A stretch of 64,000 bases of DNA from Pseudomonas sp. 8Z (lineage in GTDB: Bacteria > Pseudomonadota > Gammaproteobacteria > Pseudomonadales > Pseudomonadaceae). The notes under the pieces were generated by a model. The model was given only the letters and a program-made list of their open reading frames with translations. It was not told the origin of the DNA and did not search any database. Where the stretch lies: assembly GCF_902506535.1 (NCBI RefSeq), contig NZ_LR733827.1, forward strand, positions 163,680 through 227,679, in the 5' to 3' direction. Both the position numbers and the translations under genes were made by a program. This document shows, in pieces, positions 26,798-34,997 of the stretch (its first letter is position 1; every line of letters begins with the position of its first letter).

Positions 26798-27748
26798 TTA
26801 CAGATCCACCACCAGACAAGCGCTACGCGAGCGCGAGCAGCAGGGGGTGAACTGGTCGTTGCGGGCTTTTTCCTCGTCGCTCAAAAACAGATCGCGGTGC
26901 TCCGGCTGGCCATCCACCACACGAGTCAGGCAGGTGCCGCAGATGCCCTGGCCGCACGACACCGGAATGTCGAAACCGGCGTCCTCCAGCACCTCCAGCG
27001 CGGTGCGATCTTCCGGCACATGCAGTTCCAGACCTGAACTGGCGATGCGCAGGGTAAAGGCGCCACCGCCGCTCTCAGCCTCCGGCGCGGCGAAGTATTC
27101 GCGGTGCAGGCGTTCCTCTGCCCAGCCCTGAGCGCGGGCAGTGTCCAGCACGTATTCCATGAAACCGTTGGGGCCGCACACATAAAGCTGGCTGTCGGCT
27201 GGCTCGGCGGCGAGCAGGGCGGGCAGGTCGAGCTTTTGCGCCGCCTCGCCATCGTCGCGGTGCAGATGCGTGTGCGCCGCGAAGGGCGCGCCGACCAGGC
27301 GCTCGGCAAAGGCGGCGAGCTTGGCTGAGCGCACACATTGGTGCAGATCGAAGTCCGCACCGATGGCATACAGACGCCAGGCCATCGACAGCAGCGGCGT
27401 GATGCCGATGCCACCGGCCAGCAGCAGGCTGCGCGGCGCCTGCTCATCAAGGGCGAACAGGTTGCGCGGCGCACTGATGCTCAGGCGTTGACCGATGCGC
27501 AGCAACTCGTGCACGGCCTGCGAGCCGCCGCGCGAGGCCGCGTCACGCAAGACGGCGACCCGGTAACGGTGGCGCTCGGCGGGGTCGTTGCACAGCGAAT
27601 ACTGACGGATCAGCCCGTTGGGCAGATGCAGGTCGATATGCGCGCCGGCCTCGAAGGGCGGAAGCGGCGCGCCATCGGCTGCCACCAGCTCCAGGCCGAG
27701 GATGCCCTCGGCCTCCAGGCGCATGGCGCGGATGATGACCTCGATCAT
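26798..27748 (-). CDS. vanB: Vanillate O-demethylase reductase subunit
   Basis: A 316-residue phthalate-dioxygenase-reductase type protein. The FMN site is RQYSLCNDP, the NAD site begins [12 protein letters not shown], and the C-terminal plant-type [2Fe-2S] domain has C265, C270, C273 and C303. It passes electrons from NADH to the Rieske oxygenase VanA. The start overlaps the vanA stop by 4 bases, so the two subunits are translationally coupled. Confidence 0.93.
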
Positions 27749-28809
27749 GATGCGCTCCTGGCCAGAATCTGCCCGTCGCCCTGAGCCTGCTCGGCTTTGA
27801 CCAGGCGCTCGATGATACGCCGCGCCTGCACGCCGCCGGCGTCGATATTGAGCTTGAGCAGGTTGCGTTCAGGGTAGCGCAGCAGGTTGCGTTGCTGGCG
27901 TTCGAGCATCTCCAGGTCTTCGCTGAAAATCTTGCCCTGGCCTTCGCGGATACGGTCGGTGAGTTCGGCGTCATCCACCTTGAAGCGCCGCGCCATGCCC
28001 CAGAAGTACCAGATCGAGGTGTCGTTCTCCGGGGTGATGAAGTCGACCACGATGCTGCTGGCCTTGTACTGATCAGGCGCCTCATAGCCGCCATGCCCAG
28101 CAATCGCCACGCCCACCTCGATCAGCACATGGCTGGGCGGGGTGAAGCGGCAGATCTGCCAGCGGTCTACCGGCGCCGTTTCGTCCAAGCCATTGGCGCT
28201 CAACGCCGCACGCCAGAAGGGCGGTGCAGAGATGTTCTCCATAAAGCGGCTGGTAATCACCTCGCTGCCGTCGACGCGGGTGTTGACCGGCGCCTCGTCG
28301 ATTTCCTTCTGACCGATGCTGCTGGCATGCACGTAGGTTTCGTGGGTCAGATCCATCAGGTTATCGACCATCAGCCGGTAGTCGCAGCCGATGTGATACA
28401 GGCCGCCACCGTAGGCCCACTCGGGGCTTTCCGCCCACTGCAGATGTGGCAGTTGCGCCGGGTCGGCCAGGGCTTCATCACCGGGCCAGACCCAGATGAA
28501 ACCGTAGCGCTCCACCACCGGGAAGCGGCGGATACAGGGGAAATGCTGCACACGTTGGTTGGGCATGGCGGCGGTCTTGCCGTCGCAGCCCATGGCCAGG
28601 CCGTGGTAGCCGCAGACCAGCAGGCCGTCCTCGACATAACCCAGCGATAGTGGCGCGCCACGGTGCGGGCAGAAATCCTCCAGGGCCACGGCGCGGTTTT
28701 CCGGGCCACGGTAAAACACCATCGACTCACCGCAGATGGTGCGGCCCAATGGCTTGTTATCGATCTCGTCCGGCGTGCAGGCCACATACCAGGTGTTTTT
28801 CGGAAACAT
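27745..28809 (-). CDS. vanA: Vanillate O-demethylase oxygenase subunit
   Basis: A 354-residue Rieske non-haem iron oxygenase. The Rieske ligands are C47-P-H49 and C66-G-Y-H69; the mononuclear iron site is in DLTHETYVH with D153, H156 and H161. With VanB it demethylates vanillate to protocatechuate, releasing formaldehyde. It is first in the vanAB operon, preceded by GAGGAGG and by a VanR operator in the divergent spacer. This gene connects the coniferyl/vanillyl chemistry of the preceding cluster to central aromatic metabolism. Confidence 0.94.
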
Positions 28810-28833
28810 GACAACCTCCTCAAATGGGCGTGT

Positions 28834-28841
28834 TTATTGTT
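28834..28841 (-). promoter_or_regulatory. Candidate Crc/Hfq motif before vanA
   Basis: On the vanA strand the sequence reads AACAATAA, fitting AAnAAnAA, in the vanA leader ahead of its ribosome site. This would place vanAB under carbon catabolite repression. Confidence 0.4.
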
Positions 28842-28853
28842 ATTGGATCCAAT
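28842..28853. promoter_or_regulatory. VanR operator 1 (vanA side)
   Basis: ATTGGATCCAAT is a perfect 12-base palindrome identical to the VanO operator known for VanR repressors. It lies 33 bases before the vanA start, where bound VanR would block transcription or early elongation. Confidence 0.8.
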
Positions 28854-28896
28854 AGTTAGTCATTGGAGCGGTTTTGACTACTTTTGTTTGTGGTTG

Positions 28897-28904
28897 TGGA
28901 TCCA
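28897..28904. promoter_or_regulatory. Core-only VanR-like site
   Basis: TGGATCCA repeats the central eight bases of the two full operators but lacks their outer AT pairs. It sits midway in the divergent spacer and may be a weak auxiliary site. Confidence 0.4.
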
Positions 28905-28969
28905 TTTATGGGCGTTTATCGCACAAAAAGCCGGTTTGAACTGGCCGCTGGCTACCGTAGACTGGCGCC

Positions 28970-28981
28970 ATTGGATCCAAT
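28970..28981. promoter_or_regulatory. VanR operator 2 (vanR side)
   Basis: A second perfect ATTGGATCCAAT ends 12 bases before the vanR start codon, overlapping its leader and ribosome site region, consistent with autorepression. Confidence 0.8.
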
Positions 28982-28993
28982 CAAGGAGAGGTC

Positions 28994-29722
28994 ATGAGCG
29001 GGCCAGGACAACGTGTATTGGCGCTGCTAAGGCAGATGATTGCCGAAGGCAGCCTGGCGGCAGGCGAGCGCATTGCCGAGATCCCCACGGCTGAGCGCCT
29101 GGGAGTATCGCGCACGCCGGTACGCATGGCGTTTCGCGTGTTGGAGCAGGAAGGCCTGCTGATCCGCCATGGCGCACGCGGCTATGCCGTGCGCCAACTG
29201 GGCGAAGAAGAACTGGCAGGCGCGGTGGAAGTGCGCGGCGTGCTCGAAGGCCTGGCTGCGCGCCAGGCTGCTGAACGCGGGGTGTCCGAAGCCGTACGTG
29301 CGGTGCTGCTGGAATGCCTGACCCGCGGTGACCAACTATTCGAAAAGGGCTACCTGAGCGAAGAAGACCTGGCCAGCTACCACGACATCAACCTGCGCTT
29401 TCACCAGGCCCTGGTGGAAGCCAGCGGCAACCCGGCCATCGCCACCGCCCTGGCGCGCAACGACCACCAACCCTTCGCCTCGGTCAGCGCCCTGGCCGTG
29501 GATCGTGCCCACCTGGATCGCGAATACCGCCGCTTCAACTTCGCCCACCTGCAACACCACGCCGCCGTCGACGCCGTACTCGCCGGCCAGGGCGCCCGCG
29601 CCGAAGGCATCATGCGTGAACACGCCAACGCCACCTTGCGCTACGCACGCTTGTTCGGCACGGAAGAGGGCGCAAGGAGTGGGCGGACGGTGATACAGCG
29701 GGGCAGTCAAAAGGCGGGCTAG
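28994..29722 (+). CDS. vanR: VanR, FadR/GntR-family repressor of vanAB
   Basis: A 242-residue regulator starting at ATG 28994 behind AGGAGAGG. The N-terminal winged helix contains TAERLGVSRTPVRMAFRVLEQEGLL, followed by an all-helical FCD ligand-binding domain with the metal-site pattern DINLRFHQAL and HHAAVDAVLAGQ. It is divergent from vanA and flanked by two identical operators. It is expected to release DNA when vanillate binds. Confidence 0.92.
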   Translation: MSGPGQRVLALLRQMIAEGSLAAGERIAEIPTAERLGVSRTPVRMAFRVLEQEGLLIRHGARGYAVRQLGEEELAGAVEVRGVLEGLAARQAAERGVSEAVRAVLLECLTRGDQLFEKGYLSEEDLASYHDINLRFHQALVEASGNPAIATALARNDHQPFASVSALAVDRAHLDREYRRFNFAHLQHHAAVDAVLAGQGARAEGIMREHANATLRYARLFGTEEGARSGRTVIQRGSQKAG

Positions 29723-29785: not shown

Positions 29786-30748
29786 TCACCCCAGCGGGCT
29801 GACGACACCGGCAAAGCCCTTGCCCAGTACGTGCGTGTAGATCTGCGTCGTGCGGATATCGGCATGCCCCAACAGCGTCTGCACGGTGCGTATATCACTG
29901 CCCCGACGCAGCAGTTCGGTGGCAAAACTATGGCGAAAGGTGTGGCAGCTTGCTGGCTTGTGCAGGTTGGACTGCCGGACGGCATGCCTGACCGCCTTCT
30001 GAATGGCACTGACATGCAGGTGATGACGAACAATCTGCCCGTCCTCATCGGTGCAAAGCCCCGTTGACGGAAACAACCACTGCCATTCGAATGAGTGGCC
30101 GGCCTTTGGATATTTGCGGCGTAACGCAAAGGGCAGGCTGACGGGGGCTTGATAGAAAATGTCCCGTTGCTTCCAGGCGCGAAACATACGCGCTCTGCGC
30201 TCCAGCAATGGTGTGATCAAGGGTGCCGGCAAGAGTGTAGTTCGATCCTTGGCGCCTTTGCCGTCATGGATGGTGATGACCTGCTTATCGACATCGATAT
30301 CCTTGATGCGCAGGCGCGCCGCCTCTACTACGCGCAAGCCCGCGCCGTACATCAGCGAAGCCAGTAATTGATGAGGTTGACCCAACCTGGCAATCAGCGC
30401 TGTCGCTTCCTCGTGCGTTAGCACGCAGGGAATACGCGCCGAGCGTTTGGCACGCACCACCTCGCCAACTTGCCCAAGGGGCTGCTGCAACACCTTCTCG
30501 TACAGAAATACCAGCGAATTGAGCGCCAGATTCTGGGTGGCGGCCGCCACCTTGCGCTCAACGGCCAGCCAGGAGAGAAACGCATTGACCTCAGTAGCGC
30601 CAAGTTCAAGAGGATGGCGTAGTTGATGAAAGCGGATGAAATAGCGAATCCAGTACCAGTAGGATTGCTCCGTGCGGATGCTGTAATGATGCACACGCAT
30701 TACCGCCCTGAACTGCTCTTGCAAACGAGGCTTGCTGGAGGTCTCCAT
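29786..30748 (-). CDS. intI: Integron integrase IntI (tyrosine recombinase)
   Basis: A 320-residue tyrosine recombinase with R139 in GAGLRVVEAARLR, K164, H269-x-x-R272 in HTFRHSFATELL, H295 in LLGHADIRTT and nucleophile Y304. Residues 205-228 (LPFALRRKYPKAGHSFEWQW) are the extra segment that separates IntI from other tyrosine recombinases. No frameshift is seen, so it looks active. It is transcribed away from the candidate attI and the IS/ATPase segment, the standard integron orientation. A LexA box covers the promoter region. Confidence 0.92.
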   Translation of the reverse strand: METSSKPRLQEQFRAVMRVHHYSIRTEQSYWYWIRYFIRFHQLRHPLELGATEVNAFLSWLAVERKVAAATQNLALNSLVFLYEKVLQQPLGQVGEVVRAKRSARIPCVLTHEEATALIARLGQPHQLLASLMYGAGLRVVEAARLRIKDIDVDKQVITIHDGKGAKDRTTLLPAPLITPLLERRARMFRAWKQRDIFYQAPVSLPFALRRKYPKAGHSFEWQWLFPSTGLCTDEDGQIVRHHLHVSAIQKAVRHAVRQSNLHKPASCHTFRHSFATELLRRGSDIRTVQTLLGHADIRTTQIYTHVLGKGFAGVVSPLG

Positions 30749-30762
30749 GGCCGACTCCCTGG

Positions 30763-30778
30763 CTGTGTTTTTGTACAG
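30763..30778. promoter_or_regulatory. LexA (SOS) box of intI
   Basis: CTGT-N8-ACAG is met exactly; read on the intI strand it is CTGTACAAAAACACAG, close to the LexA consensus. It ends 15 bases before the intI start. Just upstream on that strand are a -35-like TTGACT (30804-30809) and, 17 bases on, CATTAC (30781-30786), so LexA would sit at the transcription start. SOS control of integron integrases is established in other integrons. Confidence 0.8.
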
Positions 30779-30924: not shown

Positions 30925-32117
30925 GGGATGGTCTGAAAAAGACTTCCCGAATCTGTTGAAATACGCTGATCCCGCCAGCCGAGTTTTTCCATGAAGCAGA
31001 TGACCTTCGCCGACGCCGAGTACGCAGGTAAGCGCAAGCAGACCCGCAAAGAATTGTTCCTGATCGAGATGGATCAGGTGGTGCCGTGGAAGGGGTTGCT
31101 TGCCTTGATCGAACCGCATTACCCGAAGGGTGACGGCGGCCGTCCAGCCTACCCGCTGATGGCGATGCTGCGTGTGCACCTGATGCAGAACTGGTTCGGC
31201 TACAGCGATCCTGCTATGGAAGAAGCGCTGTACGAGACGACCATCCTGCGTCAGTTCGCTGGGCTAAGCCTGGAGCGCATTCCCGACGAAACCACCATCC
31301 TCAACTTCCGTCGTTTGTTGGAGAAACATGAGCTGGCGGTCGGCATCCTTGGCGTGATCAATGGCTACCTGGGCGATCGTGGCCTGTCGCTGCGCCAAGG
31401 CACCATCGTCGATGCCACGTTGATCCATGCCCCCAGTTCGACGAAGAACAAGGACGGCAAGCGCGACCCGGAAATGCACCAGACCAAGAAGGGCAACCAG
31501 TATTACTTCGGCATGAAGGCTCACATTGGTGTCGATGAGGAATCGGGTCTGGTGCACAGCGTGGTCGGGACGGCAGCCAATGTTGCAGACGTTACTCAGG
31601 TCGACAAACTGCTGCACGGCCAAGAGAACATGGTTGCGGCCGATGCTGGGTACACCGGCGTCGAGAAGCGGCTTGAGCATGAAGGACGCGAAGTCATCTG
31701 GCAGATTGCGGCGCGCCGGAGCACGTACAAGAAGCTGGGCAAGAACAATCCGCTCTACAAAGCCAGACGCAAGATTGAGAAAGCCAAGGCCCAGGTGCGT
31801 GCCAAGGTTGAACACCCGTTCCGGGTGATCAAGCGGCAGTTCGGCTACATGAAGACGCGCTTCCGAGGTCTGGCGAAGAACACGGCTCATCTGATGACCT
31901 TGTTTGCCCTGTCGAACCTATGGATGGCGCGCCGACATTTGCTGACTACCGCAGGAGAGGTACACCTGTAATGTGAGGAATGGCCGCTACGAGATGCTCG
32001 TGACGGCCAAAAACGAAGCGCTGAGCGGACAACCTGACCGGTTTTGACTGGTCGGTGCGTTCAAAATCGGCAGAGGTCGAAGTCGGCCGGAAATGTCGGG
32101 CTATTTCAGACCATCCC
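30925..32117 (+). mobile_element. IS5-family insertion sequence, intact
   Basis: A 1193-base element with terminal inverted repeats starting GGGATGGTCTGAAA at 30925 and, on the other strand, at 32117 (14 bases identical, then diverging). TA flanks both ends (30923-30924 and 32118-32119), consistent with a 2-base target duplication. It contains one transposase gene in the + direction. It lies between the candidate attI and the ATPase coding region and supplies that gene's present stop codon. Confidence 0.85.
30991..31971 (+). CDS. IS5-family DDE transposase
   Basis: A 326-residue transposase. The catalytic triad is visible as D141 in IVDATL, D218 in AADAGY and E274 in VEHPFRVIK, with the YREK-like spacing of the IS4/IS5 superfamily. 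The reading frame fills most of the element and shows no disruption, so it should be functional. Confidence 0.92.
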   Translation: MKQMTFADAEYAGKRKQTRKELFLIEMDQVVPWKGLLALIEPHYPKGDGGRPAYPLMAMLRVHLMQNWFGYSDPAMEEALYETTILRQFAGLSLERIPDETTILNFRRLLEKHELAVGILGVINGYLGDRGLSLRQGTIVDATLIHAPSSTKNKDGKRDPEMHQTKKGNQYYFGMKAHIGVDEESGLVHSVVGTAANVADVTQVDKLLHGQENMVAADAGYTGVEKRLEHEGREVIWQIAARRSTYKKLGKNNPLYKARRKIEKAKAQVRAKVEHPFRVIKRQFGYMKTRFRGLAKNTAHLMTLFALSNLWMARRHLLTTAGEVHL

Positions 32118-33629
32118 TATGCGTTGATTTCTTTGCTCGTTAGATGCAGAGCTTACCTCAATGTCGTACTCATCATGGATTTCCTCAGCTTCGTCTAATT
32201 TTAACTCCGACTGGGATGTTCCTAACGCTAGCCAATAGCAAGGATGGATCAGTAGTCTCGAATTGTTGGAGAATTCTCTGTCTGGCTCCTTTCCATCGTG
32301 ACAGAACACGAATGATGCTGATTGTTCGTTATACATGCCAATAAATCCTACGCTGTAAAGCCTTTGTAGGACTTGTGTTTCGTTTTCAAAAAGATAAATA
32401 TCTTGGAGTTTTTCTCTGGCTATTCGATCTAGGGAAAAAATAGATGATATTTTTTCTGCTGCGTCAGCAGTGCTCATTTCTGGTTGGCAGCCGGAGAAAA
32501 CTCTTGTGAACTCTTCAAGAGCTGGGAATATAGATTCATATTCCTTGTGCAGGTCATTTAAACGGTTTGATGAAATGCTTTTTGCTGTCGACTCTATATC
32601 GTCTAGTACTATTTCCTTTCTGTCGTGTGAGTGCGCTCTTAGGAATGCGTCGTTAAGGAGAACTAGAATGTCTCTAGGTCTGTAAAGAGTGAGTTTTAGG
32701 GCAGTTCTAAAGCCGTCCTTGCCTTTTAATTCGTTGGCTGTGAATTGATTCCAAATTCTAGTATTGTTTTCTATGTCGCTTTGGAATGCTGTTCTCATCC
32801 TGTTGCAGACTAGGTTAAATAAATTGTATTCGTCCCAGTGAAGTCTAAGGGTTTGGCCTTCTATATTTCTTGTGAAGTCTGGGTCTAGCTTTGATATTGA
32901 GCGGTATATGTTGTCTCTTACAAAGGCGAATGCAGTGATATATTCATTTGATCTGCTTTTTATGTCTATAGCTGTCTGAATGAACCCATCGACAATGGCG
33001 ACGCCTAGGTCGTCGGGACTATAGCCTTCGTCTAGTTTGTCGGCAAATATTACATATTGAATGTCGGCTTTTTCTAGTGCTTCAAATAAGACTTCTTCGA
33101 TTAAATCCAGTTCTAGAATATCTGATAGGTCGGCGATTCTGGATTGAGGACTTTGTTCGTTGTTGATTAGATCTTTTAGTTTTCTTCTGATTTTTGTGGA
33201 AATGCTTTGGCGCCTTGAGCCCCATGATTGTATGTGGTGTGTTATCGAGCTTGTATCAACAAATTTTTGTAGTTTGTAGTGGTTTAGTAGGTCTGTAATT
33301 ATCTCCATATACATACCATATCTCCATGCCATTTTTGTGCCGGCTTTGATGTGGAGATATTTGTCGCCAAATAATTCAAATGTGTCCCGGAGTCCAATTA
33401 TCTGTTCTTCTTCGGGGGATATGACCATTATTTTTGTTTTTTGCTTGTGAGACCAATGCTTAGATAGCATGTGGACTAATGCGCTCTTCCCTGTTCCTCG
33501 CCGGCCAACAACTATTGATCGATCGTTGGATTCCAATAAAGATTTATAGTCTGAAGTTTCCCAAAATGAGGATTCCAGCATTTTTGAGTCATGTTCTGCT
33601 CGGATATCACCTAAAACATTTCCTTTCAT
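32106..33629 (-). CDS. AT-rich P-loop ATPase of the accessory island (Sll1717-like)
   Basis: A 507-residue protein; the ATG at 33629 is chosen because AAGAAGG lies just before it (an in-frame ATG at 33650 has no ribosome site). Walker A is GRRGTGKSA (42-50) and a Walker B-like YVIFADKLDEGY follows at 193-203. The remainder is mostly helical. The pattern resembles P-loop ATPases labelled Sll1717 family, of unknown function. Base composition is clearly more AT-rich than all neighbours, indicating transfer. The last codons and TGA lie in the IS end. A defence or stress role is a guess from context. Confidence 0.75.
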   Translation of the reverse strand: MKGNVLGDIRAEHDSKMLESSFWETSDYKSLLESNDRSIVVGRRGTGKSALVHMLSKHWSHKQKTKIMVISPEEEQIIGLRDTFELFGDKYLHIKAGTKMAWRYGMYMEIITDLLNHYKLQKFVDTSSITHHIQSWGSRRQSISTKIRRKLKDLINNEQSPQSRIADLSDILELDLIEEVLFEALEKADIQYVIFADKLDEGYSPDDLGVAIVDGFIQTAIDIKSRSNEYITAFAFVRDNIYRSISKLDPDFTRNIEGQTLRLHWDEYNLFNLVCNRMRTAFQSDIENNTRIWNQFTANELKGKDGFRTALKLTLYRPRDILVLLNDAFLRAHSHDRKEIVLDDIESTAKSISSNRLNDLHKEYESIFPALEEFTRVFSGCQPEMSTADAAEKISSIFSLDRIAREKLQDIYLFENETQVLQRLYSVGFIGMYNEQSASFVFCHDGKEPDREFSNNSRLLIHPCYWLALGTSQSELKLDEAEEIHDEYDIEVSSASNEQRNQRIGMV

Positions 33630-33650
33630 TGTTGCCTTCTTATAATTCAC

Positions 33651-33680
33651 AAAAAAGCCCCGCTTTGAGCGGGGCTTTTA
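33651..33680. terminator. Bidirectional rho-independent terminator downstream of nrdB
   Basis: GCCCCGCT-TTG-AGCGGGGC (33657-33675) is flanked by six A on the left and TTTT on the right, so it works in both directions. It ends nrdB transcription and lies only 22 bases before the ATPase start, marking the right edge of the island. Confidence 0.85.
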
Positions 33681-33746
33681 GTTTCTCTCGCTACCCCGAA
33701 CATCCGTAATCAGGTAAAGCGCTTTCTAATGGTCTAGACCCAAGAA

Positions 33747-34997
33747 TCAATCCCAGCTCAACGCCCCACCAGTCTGATACTCGATCACGCGGGTCTCGAA
33801 GAAGTTCTTCTCCTTCTTCAGATCCATGATCTCGCTCATCCACGGGAAGGGGTTGGTAGTACCTGGGTACTCTTCCTTCAGGCCGATCTGGGTCAGGCGG
33901 CGGTTGGCGATGAATTTGAGGTAGTCCTCCATCATCGCGGCGTTCATGCCCAGTACGCCGCGCGGCATGGTGTCACGCGCGTATTCGATCTCCAGTTGGG
34001 TGCCCTGCAGGATCATCTGGGTCGCTTCGTCCTTCATGTCGGCGTCCCACAGGTGCGGGTTTTCGATCTTGATCTGGTTGATCATGTCGATGCCGAAGTT
34101 CAGGTGCATGGATTCGTCGCGCAGGATGTACTGGAACTGCTCGGCGGTGCCGGTCATTTTGTTGCGGCGGCCCATGGAGAGGATCTGGGTGAAGCCGCAG
34201 TAGAAGAACACGCCTTCCAGGACGCAGTAGTAGGCGATCAGGTTCTTGAGGAACTGGCGATCGGTTTCCGGGGTGCCGGTCTGGAAGGTGGGGTCGCTGA
34301 TCGAGCGGGTGTACTTGAGGCCCCAGGAGGCTTTCTTCGCGACGCTCGGGATCTCGTGGTACATGTTGAAGATTTCGCCTTCATCCATGCCCAGCGATTC
34401 GATGCAGTACTGGTAGGCGTGGGTGTGGATCGCTTCCTCGAAGGCCTGGCGCAGGATGTACTGGCGGCACTCGGGGTTGGTGATCAGGCGGTATACGGCC
34501 AGCACCAGGTTGTTGGCGACCAGGCTGTCGGCGGTGGAGAAGAAGCCGAGGTTACGCTTGACGATGCGGCGCTCGTCTTCGGTCAGGCCATCGGTGCTCT
34601 TCCACAGCGCGATGTCGGCGTTCATGTTCACTTCCTGCGGCATCCAGTGGTTGGCGCAACCATCCAGATACTTCTGCCAGGCCCAGTCGTACTTGAAGGG
34701 TACGAGCTGGTTGAGGTCGGCGCGGGCGTTGATCATCTGCTTGTCGCCGACGTGTACGCGAGCGCTTTCGCCTTCGAGTTCGTCCAGGCCTTCCTGGATG
34801 TCGAGGGCGTCCAGGGCTTTCTTGGCGCGGGCTACGGCGTCGGAGTCGGTGGCTTCTACGGCGCGCGCTTCGAGGGCGGCGTCACCGCCGACGCGGTTCA
34901 GTGCGTCGAGGCTCATGTCGCCGGTTTGTGCGGTGGCTTTGTGTGCGACGGCGGCTTCTGCGCCGTCTTCCTTGTCGAATTCATCCCAGCTCAGCAT
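33747..34997 (-). CDS. nrdB: Class Ia ribonucleotide reductase, beta subunit
   Basis: A 416-residue R2 protein that houses the di-iron tyrosyl radical cofactor; iron-ligand helices are visible in [18 protein letters not shown] and [13 protein letters not shown]. It partners NrdA in making deoxyribonucleotides. Compared with E. coli R2 it has an N-terminal extension of acidic and alanine-rich sequence, usual for pseudomonads. It is separated from nrdA by 400 bases containing a LexA box, so it has its own promoter. Confidence 0.95.

Follow-up and report, generated by a model that had tools for sequence, protein, structure and literature searches.

The gene at positions 32106 to 33629 of the window (the whole stretch of 64,000 nucleotides of Pseudomonas sp. 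8Z that was analysed) is most likely a one-protein defence gene that has been disabled and that occupies a new docking site. Its product is an ORC/Cdc6-like AAA+ P-loop ATPase whose relatives continue into a predicted nuclease domain, and an IS5-family element has removed this domain from the copy in the window. We consider it likely that the intact gene is a one-protein defence system and that the window copy was disabled by the IS5 element. The more interesting result, however, is the insertion site: the 3′ end of nrdB is a hotspot at which related bacteria carry differing single, mostly defence-like genes. The features concerned are:

29786-30748, minus strand: intI, an integron integrase; a neighbour only in the present assembly and outside the system
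30926-32116, plus strand: IS5-family element, with its transposase at 30991-31971; its right end interrupts the gene of the ATPase near codon 504
32106-33629, minus strand: ORC/Cdc6-like AAA+ P-loop ATPase of 507 aa (NF047389, Sll1717 family), truncated and without its C-terminal PD-(D/E)XK nuclease
33027-33056, minus strand: Walker B-like strand YVIFADKLDE, residues ~192-201; D197, L199, D200 and E201 invariant
33483-33506, minus strand: Walker A motif GRRGTGKS, residues 42-49; invariant in 14 homologues
33651-33746, minus strand: element E, ACCTG-GGATGTTCGGGGTAGCGAG plus a terminator-like hairpin at 33653-33679; it separates nrdB from the ATPase gene
33747-34997, minus strand: nrdB, ribonucleotide reductase small subunit; the site is defined by the 3′ end of this core gene

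The ATPase gene in the window

In the list of open reading frames (ORFs) the ATPase frame spans 32106-33650 on the minus strand, with a GTG at 33650 as the first possible start. Translation probably begins at the ATG at 33629; this start is preceded by AAGG and gives the 507-residue protein. A chance ORF can be dismissed because of two results: the protein matches the NCBIfam profile NF047389 ("P-loop ATPase, Sll1717 family") over its full length (1-454 of 454; 268.3 bits against a cut-off of 75, E = 1.5e-79), and comparison with its two closest homologues (L064 and L069) gives a pN/pS of 0.10-0.12. The name of this profile implies no function, and the profile ends at the ATPase part, omitting the nuclease of this subgroup; a literature search found no paper naming Sll1717. 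The Pfam ORC-CDC6-like model PF24389 gives 31.1 bits (gathering cut-off 27), while two of three close relatives fall under the cut-off (24.5 bits, or not listed).

Several observations of the initial annotation hold. The Walker A and Walker B-like segments that it pointed out are intact, and both are invariant or nearly so across the 14 homologues. The gene does differ in base composition from both sides, with 40.2% GC (GC3 39%) against flanks of ~60% (54-66% in most kilobases on each side), and it has indeed no obvious metabolic partner. The proposed comparison with STAND and KAP ATPases gave no assignment: Pfam nSTAND3 (18.2 bits, gathering score 27.2) and NACHT (15.1, gathering score 26.7) remain below threshold, and no KAP P-loop ATPase is among the Pfam model matches of the window protein up to E = 1. 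A sequence search found no solved structure with similarity to the ATPase.

Architecture of the intact relatives

The protein had been taken for a stand-alone ATPase by nature; it is instead a truncated copy of an ATPase-nuclease. All 13 relatives from named genomes are 684-693 aa long (46-87% identical), as are the copies on Vibrio and Klebsiella plasmids. One homologue that is likewise located behind nrdB, that of Pseudomonas sp. ANT_H12B (G086/L069), has 686 aa and is 83% identical over the shared part. The relatives were searched for with a back-translated pattern, which finds close relatives only, so the family is under-sampled.

According to structure prediction, which the initial annotation had proposed as a check, the relatives combine an N-terminal AAA+ ATPase of the ORC/Cdc6-like type with a C-terminal PD-(D/E)XK nuclease of FokI/BspD6I-like fold. 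In the full-length model of L069 (pLDDT 80.5), the best match of the AAA+ part is archaeal Cdc6 (1fnn; Z = 13.4, 4.8 Å, 245 aligned residues), and the ATPase part also matches BrxC of BREX (Z = 11.4). The C-terminal part of the relatives, folded alone, reaches a pLDDT of 85, and its model resembles N.BspD6I (Z = 11.1, 3.8 Å, 166 aligned) and FokI (Z = 10.1). D556 and E583-x-K585 are invariant in the aligned relatives and fit the PD-(D/E)XK catalytic motif. The statement that no effector domain is visible is thus correct for the window copy, as a result of the IS5 insertion, and incorrect for its relatives.

The nuclease is read as the effector because a relative with a degraded catalytic motif (L075, Photobacterium) has a TIR effector gene beside it: a CAP12-type gene (L075:8269-9001), 27 bp upstream of the ATPase homologue and in the same direction. 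Among more distant Pseudomonas relatives, L007-L009 appear, on a reading of their sequences, to carry an N-terminal TIR-like domain and no nuclease, and L010 is an ATPase alone. The matches in G048, G060, G070, G082 and G107 (23-28% identity) were used for architecture only. Taken together, the relatives suggest a single ATPase module that can be fitted with different effectors.

These variants bear on whether the truncated protein could still be functional, as an ATPase-only regulator or sensor working with another effector. The remaining part retains 149 of 149 invariant residues, which together with the low pN/pS implies that either the nuclease was lost recently or the remaining ATPase is still used; the ATPase-only L010, the TIR-like L007-L009 and the dead nuclease of L075 with its adjoining TIR gene would agree with the second option. 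Such conservation would equally fit a simply recent truncation, in which case it is expected anyway. No effector gene adjoins the ATPase in the window, moreover, and the nuclease is kept in all nearest relatives, so we regard continued function as distinctly unlikely. As a truncated copy of an ATPase-nuclease, the window protein is very likely inactive as an effector.

Truncation by the IS5 element

The junction of the gene with the IS5 element (transposase profile match, 358 bits) is sharply defined. The ATPase ORF continues three codons into the element and then stops, and DNA homology to L064, L069, L070 and L071 starts exactly at position 32116, the end of the IS5. The product therefore ends at residue 507 and lacks both the D...E-x-K motif and the nuclease fold; the 180 missing residues, that is, the nuclease part, have no match anywhere in the genome of the strain itself.

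The link from the IS5 element to intI (profile match, 408.9 bits) may reflect either a genuine rearrangement caused by the IS or a join made during assembly, because the flanks of the element are mismatched and many joined IS5 ends occur in this genome. The 4-bp flanks are TTAG and CTAT for the window copy, against CTAA and CTAA for an intact copy elsewhere. The genome holds 21 matches to the element, many of them just ends of 122-138 bp joined to unrelated sequence (L027, L029 and L033 among them), and one IS5-end junction carries a single N. Short ends of this kind are probably assembly joins in this genome, and the intI-IS5-ATPase adjacency may be another. If so, the gene could be only interrupted, with its 3′ part on a small contig that was dropped. 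The repeats and the mismatched target-site sequences make this a possibility, although a somewhat doubtful one: the junction between the IS end and the ATPase is a local one, across which the reading frame continues into the element; no nuclease fragment was found in an assembly scored 99.99% complete; and a genuine rearrangement caused by the IS would explain the data just as well. Whichever is correct, the ORF ends without the nuclease, so its truncation is independent of this choice.

The presence of an integron integrase, together with the final few bases on the attI side of it (homology up to 30925), also raises the question of whether the ATPase gene is a cassette of the adjacent integron. 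This is very improbable and, on genomic context, was rejected. L064 and L069 share the gene together with the nrdB side, and no integrase is seen beside it there; intI and nrdB lie far apart in the relatives; the gene reads towards intI, opposite to normal cassettes; and the sole link is the IS5 element with mismatched flanks. The mobile island suggested by the initial annotation is accordingly retained only in part: the gene does adjoin an IS5 element and an integron integrase, but it is a single-gene insertion behind nrdB.

On the intI side, homology to the relatives stops at GTTAG (30925), against the IS5, and no cassette array lies beside intI here. A LexA-like box, CTG-N10-CAG, is found with the integrase at 30763-30778. 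Positions 26798-29722 encode a Rieske oxygenase, its reductase and a GntR-type regulator, ordinary catabolic genes which we presume to be a vanillate demethylase cluster (VanAB/VanR).

Genomic contexts of the relatives

The distribution of the ATPase gene is patchy, with two carriers among 293 genomes of the host's order. Matches were found in 259 plasmid records, many of which are 109-113 kb Klebsiella replicons that we take to be SSU5-like phage-plasmids; two are deposited as phages. Neighbours of the relatives that were selected by eye in ORF lists include defence genes: L001 has Gabija and an ABC-three-component system, L002 AbiE-like genes, L068 a Ppl-like ATPase, L069 a type IV REase, L071 a DrmC-like PLD, L073 a HamB-like helicase, L075 CAP12/TIR and L076 a type I RM system. 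A housekeeping context of the homologues, which would have spoken against the initial proposal, was thus not encountered; the contexts are defence islands and phage-plasmids.

Could the family serve another DNA task, such as plasmid or phage-plasmid competition, replication control or repair? The likeness to the replication initiators ORC/Cdc6 points in this direction, as does the frequent occurrence on phage-plasmids, where the protein could serve inter-element competition. Chromosomal defence neighbourhoods occur in unrelated genera, however, and the nrdB hotspot is common to Mrr, FRG, STAND and DUF4062 genes; competition with other mobile elements would, besides, be itself a form of defence. 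We therefore consider a separate task unlikely and a role of the intact family in defence or inter-element conflict quite likely. Context and architecture, as far as sequence can tell, support the defence role of the family. The proposed candidate defence gene thus stands for the family, by its nuclease, defence islands, phage-plasmids and nrdB site, and falls for this particular copy, which is probably inactive. The guess was a reasonable one; the loss of the effector to an insertion sequence was invisible to that reader.

The nrdB 3′ end and element E

Element E, of ~95 nt, was found behind nrdB in 18 of the 40 Pseudomonas loci examined. A low-GC (0.38-0.46) co-directional ORF lies within 220 nt in 15 of 18 loci with E and in 4 of 22 without it (Fisher p = 7.9e-5, for 40 nrdB loci that are not independent of each other); with independent pairs, the association of E with cargo is suggestive and not significant (median p 0.125). 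On an nrdB tree made without the last 130 nt of the gene, the state of E changes 10 times, at least six of these on well-supported branches, which disfavours the view that E is merely a clade-specific nrdB terminator. The three ATPase carriers sit in separate parts of this tree. In a search of 15 genomes, the best E-like matches lie behind nrdB. No match to E was found in the plasmid collection or in IMG/VR, phage matches are restricted to the terminator-like hairpin (19-23% of the query), and the best Rfam matches are far under gathering scores, so that E was not assigned to a known RNA.

The ORFs behind nrdB vary by strain and include an Mrr type IV REase, DEDDh-FRG (PDC-S15), STAND NTPases (PDC-S59), DUF2971 (PDC-S31), DUF4062, DUF5677 and HEPN-like proteins. 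A second ORC-CDC6-like ATPase is located directly behind nrdB without E in G076 (L131; Pfam 40.7 bits, no PADLOC match). Two tandem E elements are found in G081 (L174, G081:C54:1-6500): a first unit of nrdB, E and a DUF5677 gene is followed by a second consisting of a duplicate of the last ~112 nt of nrdB, the second E and a DEDDh/FRG gene. No integrase was seen in the small nrdB-E-cargo units.

The cargo genes behind nrdB (L064, L174, L178) often stop 6-31 nt short of a GGGGACAGA(CC/TT) motif, and RAYT-like transposase genes are present further on in L064, L113-L115 and L177-L179; the motif and these genes are possibly involved in mobility. Element E, as a leader or terminator, may tie expression of the cargo to nrdB transcription or act as a recombination handle. 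Tentatively, and with some doubt, the Pseudomonas nrdB 3′ end could be described as a site at which defence cassettes dock, each composed of an nrdB 3′ end, E and one cargo gene and devoid of an integrase, and replace one another or stack in front of one another, the ATPase-nuclease being one such cargo. A literature search found no paper on nrdB as a defence hotspot.

Comparison with known systems

ATPases of the ORC/Cdc6 clade are central scaffolds of BREX-type defence (PMC12839542). The present proteins share with BrxC, BrxD and DUF499 (PMC12839542) the Cdc6-like fold, the Walker A/B motifs and a helical and winged-helix-like part, and BrxC is among the best structural matches of the relatives' ATPase part. 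Unlike BREX, a single protein here carries its own nuclease, and no PglZ, methylase or other BREX component is adjacent. DS-41 (NF053860), a validated anti-phage system from DefensePredictor (PMC13092281), has a similar P-loop N-terminus; membership was rejected, the window protein scoring 36.3 bits against a curated cut-off of 370.

No known PADLOC defence family could be assigned either. PADLOC, suggested by the initial annotation for this purpose, returned only weak partial matches and has no model for the whole protein: the phage-defence candidate PDC-M36A matches the nuclease part of full-length relatives (45-49 bits) and PDC-M28C the ATPase part, both with a different overall architecture. 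The cleavage domains of FokI and BspD6I share the PD-(D/E)XK fold with the relatives' C-terminus (Z 10-11) at ~11% identity, but the nuclease here is tied to an AAA+ ATPase and not to a sequence-specific binding domain.

As for the site, cDHS1 and cDHS2 of P. aeruginosa (PMC10250203) likewise combine a fixed core-gene boundary with changing defence content. The differences are the location at the nrdB 3′ end, the single gene per insertion, the conserved E and, in one genome, the duplicated nrdB end; nrdB is not named among the core defence hotspots of that study.

Proposed mechanism and significance

The family assignment, the domain architecture of the relatives, the truncation, the common insertion site and the defence-rich contexts were read from sequences or models, and on these we base the following proposal. 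The low-GC gene would have been gained as a one-gene insertion at the nrdB 3′ end, together with element E as its leader/terminator. In the intact protein, the AAA+ part would sense, or assemble on, invading DNA or a phage product and oligomerise in an ATP-driven manner; the oligomer may then switch on the C-terminal nuclease, which would cut DNA and so produce the anti-phage effect. The IS5 cut at codon ~504 would leave the ATPase and the helical/winged-helix part without the nuclease, and the window copy should be unable to execute this last step.

If confirmed, these results would give the Sll1717 ATPase family a function, as a defence system that consists of one ATPase-nuclease gene and travels on phage-plasmids, and would make the window copy a natural case of an insertion sequence disarming a defence gene by removal of its effector. 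They would also provide, behind nrdB, a fixed address at which new single-gene defence systems of Pseudomonas could be read off.
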